A program made the translations under genes and the position numbers. This document shows, piece after piece, positions 5,550 through 59,235 of a stretch of 59,235 nucleotides of DNA; position 1 is the first letter of the stretch, and each line of letters starts with the position of its first letter. The notes under the pieces are model-generated. The model saw only the letters and a program-made list of their open reading frames with translations, did not search any database and had not been told where the DNA came from. The stretch is from NCBI GenBank assembly GCA_029945855.1, contig JAQSDJ010000037.1, forward strand, positions 1 to 59,235, in the 5' to 3' direction. This stretch comes from Lacunisphaera sp. Its GTDB lineage: Bacteria > Verrucomicrobiota > Verrucomicrobiia > Opitutales > Opitutaceae.

Positions 5550-6899
5550 CTACAACTTCACTTCGAACGGCGCGCCGGTTTTCGCGCGGACGTCATCGAG
5601 GGTCACGCCGGGATGCAATTCGGTGAGCACGAGGCCGCCGCCGGGTTTCACCTCGAAGACGCAGAGATCGGTGATGATGAGGCTGACGACGCCTTGGCCG
5701 GTGATCGGCAGGGTGCAGGCCTTGAGGATCTTCGGGCTGCCGTCCTTCGCGCAGTGTTCCATGACGGCCACAACGCGTTTCACGCCGGCGACAAGATCCA
5801 TGGCCCCGCCGGGGCCTTTCACCATTTTCCCGGGCACCATCCAGTTCGCGATGTCGCCGTTGTCGGCCACCTCGAGCGCGCCGAGGATGGATAGGTCGAT
5901 GTGCCCGCCGCGGATCATCGCGAACGAGTCGGCGCTGGAGAAAAACGCCGAACCGGGGATCGTCGAGATGGTCTGTTTCCCCGCGTTGATGAGGTCGGCG
6001 TCCACCCGGTCCTCGGGCGGGAACGGTCCGATGCCGAGCAGGCCGTTCTCGGACTGCAGGGTGACGTTCATGCCCGGCGGGATGAAGTTGGCGACAAGCG
6101 TCGGGATGCCGATGCCGAGGTTGACATAATAGCCGTCGCGCAACTCCCGGGCGGCGCGGCGGGCCATCAACTCGCGGATGGGCGATTCCTTCTTCGAGGC
6201 CGCGCTGCCCTGCACGGTGCGAAACTCGATGCGTTTTTCGTAATTCACGCCTTGGATGATGCGGTCGACATAGATGCCCGGCGTGTGGATCTGATCGGGC
6301 TCCAGTTCGCCGACCTCGACGAGTTCCTCGACCTCGGCGACGCAGATTTTGGCACAGGTCGCGATCATCGGGTTGAAGTTCCGCGCCGTCTTCCGGAAGA
6401 CGAGATTGCCGGACTTGTCGCCTTTCCACGCCTTCACGAGCGCGACCTCGGCCTTGATGCCGGGCTCGAGCACGTATTCCTTGCCGTCGAAAACCTTGGT
6501 TTCCTTGCCCTCGGCCAGCTTCGTGCCAAACGCGGTGCGCGTGTAGAAGCCGGGAATGCCTGCACCGCCAGCGCGGAGCCGCTCGGCGAGCGTGCCTTGC
6601 GGGATGAGCTCGAGTTCGAGCTCGCCGGCGAGCACTTGGCGCTCGAACTCCTTGTTCTCGCCGACATAGGAGGCCATGATCTTTTTTACCTGCCGGCTGG
6701 TCAGAAGAATGCCCATGCCGAAACCGTCCACGCCGGCGTTGTTGCCGACAATGGTCAAGCCCTTCACGCCGCTGTCGCGCAGGGCAGTGATCAGGTTTTC
6801 CGGGATGCCGCAGAGGCCGAAGCCGCCGGCGGCGATCGTCATGTCGTCGTGGAGCAGGCCCGCGAGGGCGGCCGGGGCGTGGGGGTAGACTTTGCTCAT
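5550..6899 (-). CDS. Fused 3-oxoacid CoA-transferase (alpha and beta subunits)
   Basis: The 449-residue protein joins both halves of a SCOT-type CoA-transferase. The alpha part (about 1-230) has the GGFGLCGIPE and GNNAGVDGFGMG motifs. The beta part (about 238-449) has the catalytic glutamate E284 in LQSENGLLGIGP. Such enzymes move CoA from succinyl-CoA or another donor to acetoacetate. Next to an acetyl-CoA acetyltransferase and downstream of tyrosine-degradation genes, its likely job is activating the acetoacetate released from fumarylacetoacetate. I start it at the ATG at 6899 (MSKVYPHAP), where family similarity begins; an upstream in-frame extension of 23 residues lies in repeat DNA. Substrate specificity is inference. 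Confidence 0.9.
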   Translation of the reverse strand: MSKVYPHAPAALAGLLHDDMTIAAGGFGLCGIPENLITALRDSGVKGLTIVGNNAGVDGFGMGILLTSRQVKKIMASYVGENKEFERQVLAGELELELIPQGTLAERLRAGGAGIPGFYTRTAFGTKLAEGKETKVFDGKEYVLEPGIKAEVALVKAWKGDKSGNLVFRKTARNFNPMIATCAKICVAEVEELVEVGELEPDQIHTPGIYVDRIIQGVNYEKRIEFRTVQGSAASKKESPIRELMARRAARELRDGYYVNLGIGIPTLVANFIPPGMNVTLQSENGLLGIGPFPPEDRVDADLINAGKQTISTIPGSAFFSSADSFAMIRGGHIDLSILGALEVADNGDIANWMVPGKMVKGPGGAMDLVAGVKRVVAVMEHCAKDGSPKILKACTLPITGQGVVSLIITDLCVFEVKPGGGLVLTELHPGVTLDDVRAKTGAPFEVKL

Positions 6900-8190: not shown

Positions 8191-8245
8191 TGCAGGTCGG
8201 GGTTTATGCCGACATCACAGCGTCGGGCCTGAAGCCCGGCCTGCA
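8191..8245. repeat. Palindromic element, GGTCGGGG family (copy 1, diverged)
   Basis: The closing arms TGCAGG and CCTGCA enclose two hairpins, one around GTCGG/CCGAC and one around GGGCC/GCCCGG. It is a diverged copy of the elements at 17414 and 58997. It begins 13 bp upstream of the thiolase ATG and ends 3 bp from the stop codon of the flavin reductase-like gene. Confidence 0.7.
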
Positions 8246-17413: not shown

Positions 17414-17460
17414 GTAGGTCGGGGTTCACCCCCGACCGTCGGGCGTAAAGCCCGACCTAC
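17414..17460. repeat. Palindromic element, GTAGGTCGGGG family (copy 2)
   Basis: GTAGGTCGGG and CCCGACCTAC close the element; inside are GTCGGGG/CCCCGAC and GTCGGGC/GCCCGAC hairpins. Nearly identical to 58997-59044 and related to 8191-8245. It ends 6 bp from the stop codon of the epimerase-like gene. Confidence 0.85.
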
Positions 17461-55218: not shown

Positions 55219-55290
55219 TAGAGGGGACCTAATCCACGCCAGCGAAGATCCCCTCTATCAAGCGGGGTGCCCGTCAGGGCGGGGGGTGTA
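55187..55290. repeat. Large inverted element with CACCCC and CTTGATAGAGGGGA arms
   Basis: A 14-bp perfect inner stem, CTTGATAGAGGGGA (55214-55227) and its inverse (55249-55262), is flanked by outer arms CACACCCCG and inverse near 55290. A related half-element is at 59073-59112. Confidence 0.75.
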
Positions 55291-56820
55291 GGGTCTGGGC
55301 GGATGCGAAATATTCCGACTACCCCCATGAAATCCACGTCGCTGTCCGTTTTGCTCGCGCTGGTCCTTGCCCCGGTGCTTTCCGCCCAGCCTTCCGGCGG
55401 CCCCTACGGCCCGCTGCCGCAGACCTACGTGGTGCCGGCGGATGCCGCCCACGTCTATTACGTCGCCCCCGACGGTTCGGCCGACGCCCCCGGCACCGCC
55501 CTGGCGGCTCCCACCACCCTCGCGGCGGCCGTCGCGCGCGTGGTGACCGGCGACGCCATCATCCTGCGCGGCGGCACCTATCGCACGGGTGGCCTGCGTC
55601 TCAACCAAGGCGTCACGCTCCAGCCGTTCCGCGACGAGCAGCCCGTGCTCAAGGGCACCCTCGTCGCCAACCAGTGGGAGGCCCTGCGCGAGGGCGTGTG
55701 GCGCACGAAATGGACGAAGCTCTTCCCCAAAAAGCCCGCCGACTGGTGGCGCCGCAACCGCGAGGGCATGCGCACCCCGCTCCACCGGTTCAACGACGAC
55801 ATGGTCTTCGTCGACGGCCGGGCGCTCCGCTCCGAGTTCTGGGAAGGCGGCCTCGACGCGGACTCCTACGCCATCGATTACGAGGGCGGTTACGTCTACA
55901 TCAAGTTCGACCCCGCCGGCCGGCAGATCGAGATCACGGCCCACGACAGCGCCCTCGTCCGCACCACCGGCGACGTCCACGGCAAGCAATCCGACCGCCG
56001 GGGCTACACGATCCGCGGCCTCACCTTCACCCAATACGCCTACCGCGCCCTCGAGGTCGAGGGCACCGAGCCCGAGAAACTCGCCGACCCCGCCACGTTC
56101 GGCCTGGAGGTCGTCGGCACCACCCTCGAGCATGTCACCCTCACCCATTGCTCCCGGGTCGCGGGCTATTTCCGCGGCAACCGCTTCACCCTCCGCCACT
56201 GCCTGATCAGCGACACCAGCACCGAGGGCGTCTATCTCATCGATTCCTCCGACTGCCTCCTCGAGAAAAACATCTTCGCCCGCAACAACGTGGAGCAGAT
56301 CACCGGCTACTACCCGTCGGCCGTGAAGATCTTCAACCAATCCTGGCGCGTCACCTGCCGCGACAACCTCGTCATCGACAACCCCGACTCCAACGGCATC
56401 TGGTATGACGTCGGCAACGCGGACGGCGTCTTCGTCAACAACTGGGTCGAGCACTGCCTCGACGGCTTCTTCTGGGAAATCTCCCAGCGCGTCATCGTCG
56501 CCGGCAACGTCTTCGTCAACTGCGACAAGGGCGTGCGCAGCCTCAACTCGTCCGGCGCCCGCGTGTATCAGAACACCTTCGTCAACACCGTCGCCTCCTT
56601 CGAGCGCGACACGCGCAGCGCCGTCGGCGACCACTTCGGCTGGCATCCCTCCACCGGCCCCGACGTTCACGAGCGCCACGGCCATGTCTTCTCCGGCAAC
56701 CTGCTCGTCGCCGACGCCACGTTCCCCAAGGCGATGCTCCGTGCCGACCAAGCCCCGGCGCTGAAGGACAGGCTCACCCAACCGGCCTTCGCCGCCGTCG
56801 ACCACAATCTCTACGTGCGT

Positions 56821-56830
56821 CCCGCCACCC
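56821..56830. repeat. Target-site duplication, left copy
   Basis: CCCGCCACCC directly precedes the left end of the insertion sequence and is repeated at 58700-58709. Ten bases is within the range known for ISAs1-family elements. Confidence 0.85.
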
Positions 56831-56925
56831 CACGGGGATCCGTGGTGAGCGCGTAAGCTGTTTTGGGGGAAGGGCCGCATTATTTGCTGGCAAAGTTGAC
56901 CGCGCGGTGCAGGGTGGACGGTGGC

Positions 56926-58679
56926 ATGTCAGGCTCATCCTCATATCTCAACCTCGCGCGGGTGCAGGTGCGGGCCGCGCGGGCCAACGAACACGCGCGC
57001 TGCGAGCAGGAGCTCGCCGCGCACCATTATCTGCCGACGGCGCAAGTGGCCGGCGATCGCGGCTGGCAGATTGCCGAGTGTGACGGCCGATGGGTCGCGG
57101 TGCTGCTGTGGTGTGCCGCGGCCAAGCGGCTGAAGGCGCGGGAGGCGTGGATCGGCTGGGATCCGCGCACCCGGGCCGAACGGCTCAAGCTGGTGGTGCA
57201 ACAGGCCCGGTTCTGCCTGCTCCACCAGCAGCCCAACCTCGCCAGCCGCGTGCTGGGCGAGTCGGTCCGGCACCTGCCGGACTGGTGGCACCACCAGCAT
57301 GGTTACACGCCGCTGTTGGCGGAGACCTTCGTGGATCCCGCGCGCTTCGAAGGCACGTGCTACCGGGCGGCGGGCTGGAGCGAAGCGGGCGCGACGAGCG
57401 GTCACCGCCGGGCCGGGCGCGATTATTATCACGCCGGCGCCGGCCTGAAGAGTCTGTGGCTCAAGCCCCTGCGCCCGGATGCCGCGGTCCGCTTGCGCGG
57501 ACCCGAGGCGTGCCTGCCGGCCGAGTGCCACGCGGCGCGACCGATCGCGACCATGGGGATCCTCCCGGTCAAGCTCGCCCAGGTGGAGTCGCTCCACGAC
57601 GCGTTCGCGCGGGTGCCCGATCCGCGGGCCGGCAACCGTCAGCACCGGCTGGCCACCGTCCTGACGATCGTGGCGCTCTCCATCCTGATGGGCCGCCAAC
57701 GGCCGGCCGACTTTCTGCGGCTGGCCCAGCAGCTCAACGCCCGGCAGCGCGAGGCGCTCGGCTATTACCGGCCGCCGGGCAAGAAAGTCCGCGTGGCGCC
57801 GGGGCGCGACGTGTTTTACTCGCTGTTGGGCCGCGTCGATCCGGCGGCCCTCGCGGCCGTCCTCAACGCGTGGCTCCAAGCCCAGCACGGCCAGCTGCCG
57901 GCCGCGCTCGCCCTCGACGGCAAGGCCGTCACCGACCGGCTCGCGCAAGTCGTCAGCCTCGTTTCCCAGGAAACCGGCGCCACCGTCGCCGTCGCCCCGG
58001 TGCTCGCGGTCGCCAAGGAGCACGAAGTGCCGGCCGCCCGCGCCTTGCTCGCCCAGACCGATCTCACGGACACCTTGGTCAGCCTCGATGCCGGCCACGC
58101 CAACCACGCCACCGCCCGCACGATTGTCGAGGCGGGCGGCGAGTATCTGATTCAACTCAAGGGCAACGCCCCCGCGGCGCAGGCCGCCGCCGCGCACGCC
58201 CTGCACGGCCAGGCGCCCCTTTTTTCTCCGACGACGCCGATCACGGCCGCACCGAACACCGCGAGTTGACGCTGGCCGCCGTCACGCCGGCCCAACTGGG
58301 CTTTCCGCATGCCGCCACCGTCGTCGCCGTGCACAGCGCGGTGACCGACAAGAAGACCGGCGCCGCGAGTGGCGAAACCCGGCTGTTCGTCTCCTCCGCG
58401 GCACGCACCGCGTGCACCCCTCGCCAGTGGCTCGCCCGCTGTCGCGGTCACTGGAGCGTCGAAAGCGCCAACCACTACCGCCGCGATGTGACTTGGCGCG
58501 AGGACGCTGAACTCGGGCGCAACGTCCGGCGCGCCTGCAACCTGGCGCTGCTCCGTTCCGCCCTCTTGGGCGCCCTCCTGCGCGATGGCCCCGTCAACCT
58601 CTCTGCCCTCTCGCAACACTATGCCTTCCATCCCCCCGCCGCCCTGCGCTTCCTCCGCCACCCTCATGCTCACTCATGA
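56926..58679 (+). CDS. Transposase: DUF4338/DruA-like domain fused to ISAs1-type DDE domain, -1 frameshift
   Basis: From the ATG at 56926 the first frame runs to 58269. Residues about 5-195 resemble DUF4338, the DruA domain of Druantia (LAAHHYLPTAQVAGDRGWQI, AREAWIGWDPRTRAERL, LLAETFVDPARFEGTCYRAA). An ISAs1 transposase follows from about 215, with Asp331 (LALDGKAVTD) and Asp388 (SLDAGHANHA). The catalytic Glu and RGHWSVESANHYRRDVTWRE are only in the -1 frame, which opens at a six-T run (58220-58225) and ends at 58679. Either slippage at the T run joins the two, or a mutation has inactivated it. Confidence 0.8.
58220..58225 (+). other. T6 tract at the transposase frame change
   Basis: CCCC followed by six T and CTCC. 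In frame zero it reads CCC CTT TTT TCT and leads to a stop at 58269; one base back gives TTT TTC TCC GAC and enters the frame with the catalytic Glu. Runs of this kind support transcriptional slippage or ribosomal -1 shifting in other insertion sequences. Confidence 0.6.
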
Positions 58680-58699
58680 GGCCATATCGGAATACCGTG

Positions 58700-58709
58700 C
58701 CCGCCACCC
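58700..58709. repeat. Target-site duplication, right copy
   Basis: CCCGCCACCC immediately after the right end of the insertion sequence, identical to 56821-56830. Confidence 0.85.
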
Positions 58710-58996
58710 CCAACGCCCTCATCGCGTGGAGCCCCGGCGCCGGCGACGTCAACCAGTTCATGCTCAAGACGCCCGCCGAGCTGAACCAGAAGCTCCCCCA
58801 GTTCGAGGCGCACAGCCAGCTCCTGAACTTGGCACCCGACGCCGTGCTGCAAAGCCCGGCCCTGAAGCGCTATATCCCGGTCCGTCCGCTGCCCGTGCAG
58901 GCTCCGCTGCCGGCCGAGATCGTCGCCCTCCTCGGCTGGCCGCAGCAGGCCACCTACGCCCCCGGCGCCTATCAGCCTGTTTCCCGATAGCCAACG

Positions 58997-59044
58997 GTAG
59001 GTCGGGGTTTATCCCCGACGTGTCGGGCGTAAAGCCCGACCTAC
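58997..59044. repeat. Palindromic element, GTAGGTCGGGG family (copy 3)
   Basis: Closing arms GTAGGTCGGG/CCCGACCTAC with hairpins GTCGGGG/CCCCGAC and GTCGGGC/GCCCGAC, almost the same as 17414-17460. It begins 6 bp after the stop codon of the split beta-helix gene. Confidence 0.85.
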
Positions 59045-59180: not shown

Positions 59181-59235
59181 CTACTCGCTACTCGCTACTC
59201 GCTACTCGCTACTCGCTACTCGCTACTCGCTACTC
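59181..59235. repeat. Tandem CTACTCG heptamer array at the window edge
   Basis: Nearly eight perfect copies of CTACTCG (the inverse of CGAGTAG) running off the window. It is the same unit as the arrays at 19299 and 47039, here in a longer perfect tract and possibly the first arm of another inverted pair. Confidence 0.9.

Follow-up and report, generated by a model that had tools for sequence, protein, structure and literature searches.

We propose that the insertion sequence (IS) at positions 56831-58699 of the window, a 59,235-nt stretch of contig JAQSDJ010000037.1 from Lacunisphaera sp., belongs to the ISAs1 family and encodes a transposase with an N-terminal Mom-like GNAT domain. The DDE domain of this transposase would be completed only by programmed slippage, with the zero-frame product limiting transposition and the Mom-like domain modifying or binding DNA. 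We put the probability of this reading at roughly 70%. The evidence comes from the structure of the element itself, from comparison of its N-terminal domain with phage Mu Mom, and from a frame change that recurs at one site across a family of related fusions.

An ISAs1-family element inside a target gene

On sequence evidence, the stretch 56831-58699 is a complete ISAs1-family IS within a gene that is intact in relatives. Both the terminal inverted repeats and the short target duplication of the family are present, and the limits drawn in the first-pass annotation, 56831 and 58699, coincide with the exact outer bases of the inverted repeats, with a 10-bp direct repeat outside them. The features are listed below.

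55267-56820, + strand: 5' part of the target gene, which by eye encodes a right-handed beta-helix-like protein (frames with 71-81% identity occur in five genomes of the genus)
56821-56830, no strand: left copy of the target-site duplication, CCCGCCACCC (sequence and scan)
56831-58699, + strand: ISAs1-type insertion sequence of 1,869 bp with the DruA/Mom-like-transposase gene (inverted repeats and 10-bp target duplication)
56831-56842, + strand: left inverted repeat, CACGGGGATCCG (9/12 match to the right repeat)
56863-58269, + strand: open reading frame of 468 aa, start TTG at 56863
56926-58269, + strand: zero-frame product from the likely ATG, 447 aa and stop, with the Mom-like domain, PF13808, and the first DDE part
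56986-57405, + strand: DruA (PF14236) / Mom-like GNAT domain (Pfam, AlphaFold model, structural and profile match to Mom)
57598-57876, + strand: PF13808, DDE_Tnp_1-associated domain of ISAs1 transposases (Pfam)
57952-58170, + strand: DDE transposase domain PF01609, first part (Pfam; NF033564 positions 39-184)
58186-58214, + strand: predicted RNA hairpin directly 5' of the tract (folding energy -20.1 kcal/mol for the preceding 40 nt)
58216-58225, + strand: CCCCTTTTTT, the 10-nt slippage tract and point of change to the -1 frame (sequence)
58221-58679, + strand: -1-frame C-terminal portion of the ISAs1 transposase (P0002; NF033564 positions 199-311)
58688-58699, - strand: right inverted repeat, reverse complement CACGGTATTCCG (9/12 match to the left repeat)
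58700-58709, no strand: right copy of the target-site duplication, CCCGCCACCC (sequence and scan)
58710-58990, + strand: 3' part of the target gene (matches the C-terminus of uninterrupted homologues L154-L156)

Both pieces of the target gene lie in one uninterrupted protein in L154-L156, the three of five same-genus loci whose C-terminal frame was recovered. A protein search found the window element as a single copy in its own 5.0-Mb draft genome; this is counted against the preferred reading, and transposition activity of the window copy is putative. Another Verrucomicrobia MAG (L032) carries an 84%-identical element with inverted repeats and a 10-bp duplication of its own, GGTCCAAATG. Across the fusion family, the whole gene is bracketed by inverted repeats and 9-10-bp duplications at 12 of the 44 loci for which both flanks were available, compared with none of 130 mismatched flank pairs, and the inverted repeats begin mostly with CAGGG or CACGG. 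The PBYS copies have clear inverted repeats, but no target duplication was found in the flanks seen, and the element ends could not be fixed for the Pseudohongiella and Synoicihabitans copies.

Within the 468-aa frame, Pfam places PF14236 (DruA, formerly DUF4338) at residues 42-181 (E 2.7e-15; 56.8 bits, above the cut-off of 27), PF13808 at residues 246-338 (2.6e-11), and PF01609 at residues 364-436 (1.7e-6). This profile search bears out the earlier assignment of the N-terminal region to DUF4338. The DDE domain matches the NCBIfam ISAs1 model NF033564 in two halves that occupy different reading frames. The first half scores just below the cut-off of 70 as a protein (3.6e-19, 69.1 bits) and above it on the genome contig (70.3 bits; model positions 39-184 of 314), and the second half matches at 58224-58568 (2.6e-16, 60.8 bits; model positions 199-311 of 314). 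The first-pass annotation of the remaining protein as ISAs1-type stands, with matches to PF13808, PF01609, and NF033564, but it overlooked that the protein is not encoded in a single frame; the ISAs1 half breaks at 58216-58225 and proceeds in the -1 frame. The third and last catalytic acid presumably lies in this -1-frame part (58221-58679), its position being taken from the family motif.

Elsewhere in the window, paired palindromic repeats (GTAGGTCGGG..TTTA..CCCGAC) occur at 17414-17460 and 58997-59044, with a weaker match at 8222-8244. There are six matches in all and none expected by chance, and the repeats resemble REP-type elements. Head-to-tail repeats of the 7-mer CTACTCG fill 59181-59235, up to the window end.

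The N-terminal domain is related to phage Mu Mom

The IS domain is, as judged from profile and residue comparison, homologous to phage Mu Mom and keeps most of its conserved residues. AlphaFold modeled the window domain with a pLDDT of 90.2 and a pTM of 0.86, and the domain of a single-frame relative (48-sequence alignment) mostly above pLDDT 90. VIA-align against the PDB ranked Mu Mom (8bv8) first for both models: Z 14.9 over 163 aligned residues at rmsd 3.5 for the window domain, followed by another GNAT at 12.9, and Z 14.6 over 170 aligned residues at rmsd 3.9 for the relative, again followed by another GNAT at 12.7. Many GNATs fit the domain model at Z of about 12-13, and Foldseek alone places other GNATs ahead of Mom at the top of its PDB ranking. 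In the Foldseek ranking of viral models, the seventh entry is a protein named Mom and the twelfth is LP65 Orf128, annotated as Mom-like.

Profile comparison points in the same direction. When 51 domains (48 ISAs1 fusions and three genes adjoining other transposases) were aligned with 12 viral Mom proteins, hhalign returned a probability of 96.8% and an E value of 3e-10, colinear over 133 columns. None of 200 shuffles of the occupied columns reached the real score (best shuffled probability, 1.6%), and reversed Mom gave 0.6%. The Pfam Mom family, PF25680, recognizes one IS-linked relative above its cut-off of 27.1 (L180; 1.6e-6, 28.4 bits) and three below it (L172, 7.7e-6; L170, 9.8e-5; L179, 0.0054). 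It has no match to the window domain at E 1, and we therefore use the label "Mom-like" rather than Mom. PHROG 1384, "Mom-like DNA modification protein", matches the window protein at no better than 0.0035, a phage gene at 4.2e-4, and an IS66-linked gene at 4.4e-5, with no match in the other two proteins scanned. For the window domain, the missed Pfam model and this weak PHROG score count against the Mom reading. Sequence searches for a solved structure returned none for the window protein at E 1 and two chance rows for the 51-domain profile, so the link to Mom draws on the fold, profile, and family-model comparisons.

Residues of Mom and the window domain were compared through the profile alignment. 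Ser114 of Mom (231-residue numbering), which is changed in the inactive Mom structure 8bv8, aligns with Ser107 of the window domain. H34, R95, S107, G143, and Y146 are identical in all aligned sequences, comprising 50 ISAs1-type, four Tn5-type, five IS66-linked, two DDE_5-linked, three other, and two phage sequences; the same residues occur in 12, 11, 10, 12, and 12 of the 12 viral Mom proteins, respectively. N104 and D137 are invariant among ISAs1-type sequences; their variation in IS66- and DDE_5-linked sequences counts against the Mom reading. The window domain accordingly has the Mom fold and the conserved residues, including the serine mutated in 8bv8, and shares with the Mom family (PF25680, 8bv8) the 133-column profile match and the pattern H-Y, R, N..S, D, G..Y..A, G. 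Unlike Mom, it is fused to a transposase (relatives also stand beside one), and the IS domains have an R..WIGW segment, with Mom gapped at the Trp column. Mom-family enzymes are described, in the relevant passages of one source, as catalyzing acyl transfer to N6 of adenine (PMC7824862), and by analogy the Mom-like domain may also modify bases.

Relation to Druantia DruA

The window domain shares a Pfam family, PF14236, with DruA of Druantia. The PADLOC DruA models (PDLC00001/2) match neither the window protein nor the single-frame relative P0003 at E 1, and weakly match three IS-neighbor genes (2.1e-5 to 4e-4). In eight Druantia DruA proteins, S107 is replaced by Gly in 8/8, G143 by Arg, and R95 is never Arg, in an alignment that is remote and whose single columns are to be read with care. 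A tree of 86 sequences recovers the Druantia proteins as a separate clade (8/8, support 1.0) and the IS-linked domains in one clade with a support of only 0.756 and one phage sequence inside. Supports are 0.973 for the ISAs1 fusions together with that phage sequence, 0.991 for the Tn5 fusions, and 0.961 for the IS66-linked domains, while deep supports are modest. No relatives of Druantia DruA were found in viral contigs, and Druantia partner genes (e.g., druE) are absent as immediate neighbors of the window element, both of which are target-gene halves.

Because the PADLOC models miss the window protein and P0003, and because Mom-type residues retained in the IS domains are missing from the Druantia proteins, the label "Druantia-like" would mislead for the IS domain. 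Unlike the window domain, the eight aligned Druantia DruA form a clade of their own without these residues. The first-pass annotation had suggested that DruA domains may have come from, or still serve, transposition. Service in transposition is supported by the location of the domain within inverted repeats and duplicated flanks and by its association with at least four IS types. A transposase origin of Druantia DruA is not borne out, given the separate clade and the 0.756 support of the IS clade.

A conserved frame change within the DDE domain

In the window, the zero frame stops at 58269 and the ISAs1 C-terminus runs on in the -1 frame across CCCCTTTTTT to 58679. We classified the corresponding site across the fusion family, with CnTm tracts as class A and TnCm tracts as class B. 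From L032-L112 (81 loci), ten were excluded manually as duplicates or as broken early (L077, L078, L086, L094, L097, L099, L101, L102, L103, and L109), and L096, broken upstream of the tract, was removed from the CnTm class and is excluded from the recounted tract statistics. The 71 classified loci comprise 38 CnTm tracts, 15 TnCm tracts, two T9 runs, one T2C6 (L111), one A9 (L061), one single frame of 620 aa (L098), three contig ends, and ten genes broken upstream of the site. The single-frame lineage is Pseudohongiella. At L061, the frame-change site (6268-6289) carries an A9 run and not a C/T tract.

A homopolymer tract, mostly a 10-nt C/T run, thus occupies one site in the DDE domain at 57 of 58 assessable loci. 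For 54 of these 57, tblastn located the C-terminal part beyond the tract, always in another frame. Among loci with a determined direction, CnTm tracts lead to -1 in 36 of 37 (+1 only at L044) and TnCm tracts to +1 in 13 of 13; both T9 tracts and T2C6 give +1, and A9 gives -1. No direction was assigned at L054, L100, and L106, and the C-terminal match at L054 lies only beyond a gap. The tract is exactly 10 nt long in 30 of 39 CnTm loci (window included) and 13 of 15 TnCm loci, and the C/T boundary shifts (C6T4, C5T5, C4T6; T3C7, T4C6, T5C5) with the sum mostly staying at 10. These are two-run tracts of about RNA-DNA hybrid length at a conserved frame change, the feature of the XmYn pattern, a name given to T5C5-type slippage in passages of PMC6211511. 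Duplication length was compared among the 12 elements with visible ends, and is 10 bp in nine of CnTm type and 9 bp in three of TnCm type (L104, L107, and L112).

The RNA upstream of the tract is predicted to fold. The 30 nt before the tract are more stable than same-gene controls in both classes (CnTm, -8.43 versus -5.12, p 5.7e-6; TnCm, -10.52 versus -5.25, p 1.5e-4; each the best among three widths). With 24 and 20 nt, the effect is modest for CnTm (p 0.005 and 0.018) and has p 0.001 and 0.0006 for TnCm, and several class A tracts have a weak hairpin or none in front of them. On both strands of 53 loci (0.84 Mb), 38 of 47 CnTm tracts of at least 9 nt and 15 of 25 TnCm tracts are frame-change sites. 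The frame break is carried by three identical copies in one genome and by a finished plasmid copy.

The transposase gene of plain ISAs1 elements is usually single-frame, a property that lies outside the family model and that the window element does not share. Among 849 plasmid records matched by a plain 373-aa ISAs1 transposase, 716 had one place covering at least 80%, and each of the 40 matches listed from these records is a single aligned piece, in some cases partial. Plain ISAs1 at L119 and L127, the two readable loci of the order, and in the plasmid copy L150 showed neither a CnTm nor a TnCm tract; L119 has one T7 run. Because of the frame change at 58216-58225, we call the window element an ISAs1 variant. 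It shares with the ISAs1 family (NF033564, PF13808) both transposase halves, inverted repeats, and 9-10-bp duplications. It departs from plain ISAs1 in its added N-terminal DruA/Mom-like domain and in changing frame within the DDE domain.

Distribution and other transposase partners

A survey of genomes for the same fusion found that it recurs as a family. Scanning GTDB with 13 aligned fusions gave 507 matching stretches, 403 of which encode relatives. The best 80 of these 403 were kept and are mostly from Verrucomicrobiota and other PVC, with a few contigs labeled Chloroflexi, Uhrbacteria, Acidobacteriia, Omnitrophota, Bacillota, and Gammaproteobacteria; most GTDB relatives are MAGs, and their taxon labels may be wrong. 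DruA itself was found in 18 of 372 genomes of the order and in 41 of 387 genomes of the phylum, two overlapping samples in which some matches are not fusions. A scan of viral contigs recovered seven loci, with the full fusion in one (L112). The fusion is also present on two plasmids of Candidatus Thiodictyon syntrophicum, and in the NCBI annotation of one of these it appears as an "ISAs1 family transposase" with a "hypothetical protein" after it.

The DruA/Mom-like domain is fused to or adjoins the transposase in at least four IS types. Fusions of PF14236 with Tn5-like transposases occur in L175, L176, L179, and L180 (PF14706 in all four, PF02281 in two), and one with a DDE_5 transposase occurs in L172. 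As a separate gene, the domain directly precedes IS66 transposases in L004 and L174 (Pfam PF03050), in L018 (N-terminal IS66-type domains), and in L006, L170, and L178 (downstream frame read by eye), and precedes a DDE_5 transposase in L005. A search for the IS66-linked domain in phages found nothing.

Two further loci are recorded here as side observations. On a Thiodictyon plasmid (L203, 2249-3127), a DUF4338 gene is followed by a site-specific integrase and by a gene annotated as IS91 family transposase, making IS91 a possible further partner of the domain. On a viral contig (L114, 1417-2376), a 320-aa DruA/Mom-like gene lies upstream of a gene that by eye resembles a terminase, which suggests phage use of the DruA/Mom-like branch.

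Proposed mechanism

Programmed slippage has precedents among insertion sequences. Passages of Atkins et al. 2016 (PMC5009743) name IS1, IS3, IS5, and IS630 as families that use frameshifting, and describe a Roseiflexus IS in which slippage at T5C5 depends on a stem-loop immediately 5' of the tract and produces deletions only, since a single rU:dG pair can be accommodated but rC:dA cannot. This IS630-family element shares with class B the T5C5 or T4C6 tract, the adjacent 5' hairpin, and the +1 outcome. Unlike it, the window element belongs to the ISAs1 family and carries the mirror-image CnTn tract of class A with a -1 change. Under this pairing rule, backward slippage with an added nucleotide, read as -1, would be favored on the mirror tract C5T5. 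Class A does go -1, as predicted. By this analogy, RNA polymerase is the probable agent of slippage at the tract.

We propose that most transcripts would yield the zero-frame product, which consists of the Mom-like domain, the ISAs1 N-terminal domain (PF13808), and a DDE domain without its last catalytic acid. This product would keep the first DDE acids, and may occupy the element ends and restrain transposition. RNA polymerase, assisted by the upstream hairpin, would slip on CCCCTTTTTT and add one nucleotide, and these minor transcripts would encode a full-length transposase of about 584 aa. The predicted transcript changes are one nucleotide added with CCCCTTTTTT and one missing with TTTTTCCCCC. 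The transposase would then bring the Mom-like domain to element or target DNA, where adenines may be modified or at least bound. Such modification could protect transposition intermediates from host restriction or mark copies.

A broader proposal, to which we give somewhat less than an even chance, is that several IS families separately coupled their transposases to Mom-type base-modification enzymes and so tied transposition to hypermodification of element or target DNA. In ISAs1, hairpin-assisted RNA-polymerase slippage on mirror-image C/T tracts would set the ratio of a modifying, transposition-blocked protein to the full transposase, and Druantia DruA would be a relative in which the Mom-type site was lost.

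Alternative explanations

The function assigned to the domain and its source can each be read differently. Accessory DNA-binding domains are frequent in transposases and a common fold shows no function, so we allow a sizeable minority chance that the Mom-like domain is no longer an enzyme and instead acts as a DNA-binding or dimerization module that helps the transposase hold the ends. The identity of the five residues H34, R95, S107, G143, and Y146 across 50 ISAs1-type and the Tn5-, IS66-, and DDE_5-linked sequences nevertheless fits an active site better than a surface. A Druantia DruA captured by an IS, such that the element carries or spreads an anti-phage part, is very improbable. The common Pfam family and the weak PADLOC matches to three IS-neighbor genes would agree with capture, but the same models miss the window protein and P0003, the Druantia clade is separate and without Mom-type residues, and a 1.9-kb element has no room for Druantia partner genes. 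Capture was rejected on these four grounds.

The frame change, likewise, could be made by the ribosome rather than by RNA polymerase. Many IS elements use -1 ribosomal frameshifting, and the class B P-site codon CCC followed by U might slip +1 on the ribosome. We consider this unlikely, as the C/T boundary moves while the sum mostly stays at 10, about the length of the RNA-DNA hybrid; the canonical heptamer would be found in only some class A sites; and stem-loops stand 5' of the tract, as in the transcriptional case. Scarcely credible is a break that reflects decay or a homopolymer assembly error. Errors are common in homopolymers, and at 10 of 71 loci the gene breaks upstream of the site, yet the tract holds the same place in 57 of 58 assessable loci, the direction follows tract order, and both repeated identical copies and a finished plasmid carry the break. 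Decay and sequencing error were rejected for these reasons.

Relation to published work and implications

In passages of PMC10853773, DUF4338 is called a GNAT-like domain in DndF fusions, a view that agrees with the fold assigned here. Unlike the window domain, the DndF fusion belongs to a phosphorothioate restriction context, and those passages make no link to Mom or transposases (PMC10853773). In the portions of the literature on DUF4338 that were available, no link to transposases or Mom was found. Likewise, no published account of a DruA-ISAs1 fusion was found in the literature searched; ISfinder, Rfam, and most subscription papers lay outside this search. Within that literature, the refuting condition named in the first-pass annotation, that such fusions are already well described as an IS class, did not arise, and NCBI labels a relative simply "ISAs1 family transposase".

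If the preferred reading is true, DUF4338 matches can be transposases and not defense genes, a warning for annotation, and the Pfam name "Druantia protein DruA" has concealed the use of base modification by mobile elements. The role of DruA in Druantia would gain a lead, namely a Mom-related GNAT with a changed site. ISAs1 would join the frameshifting IS families, and its two slippage signals, mirror images of each other, act in the directions expected from the rU:dG rule described for T5C5. Finally, base modification, known as a phage shield against restriction, would also be a tool of the simplest mobile elements.
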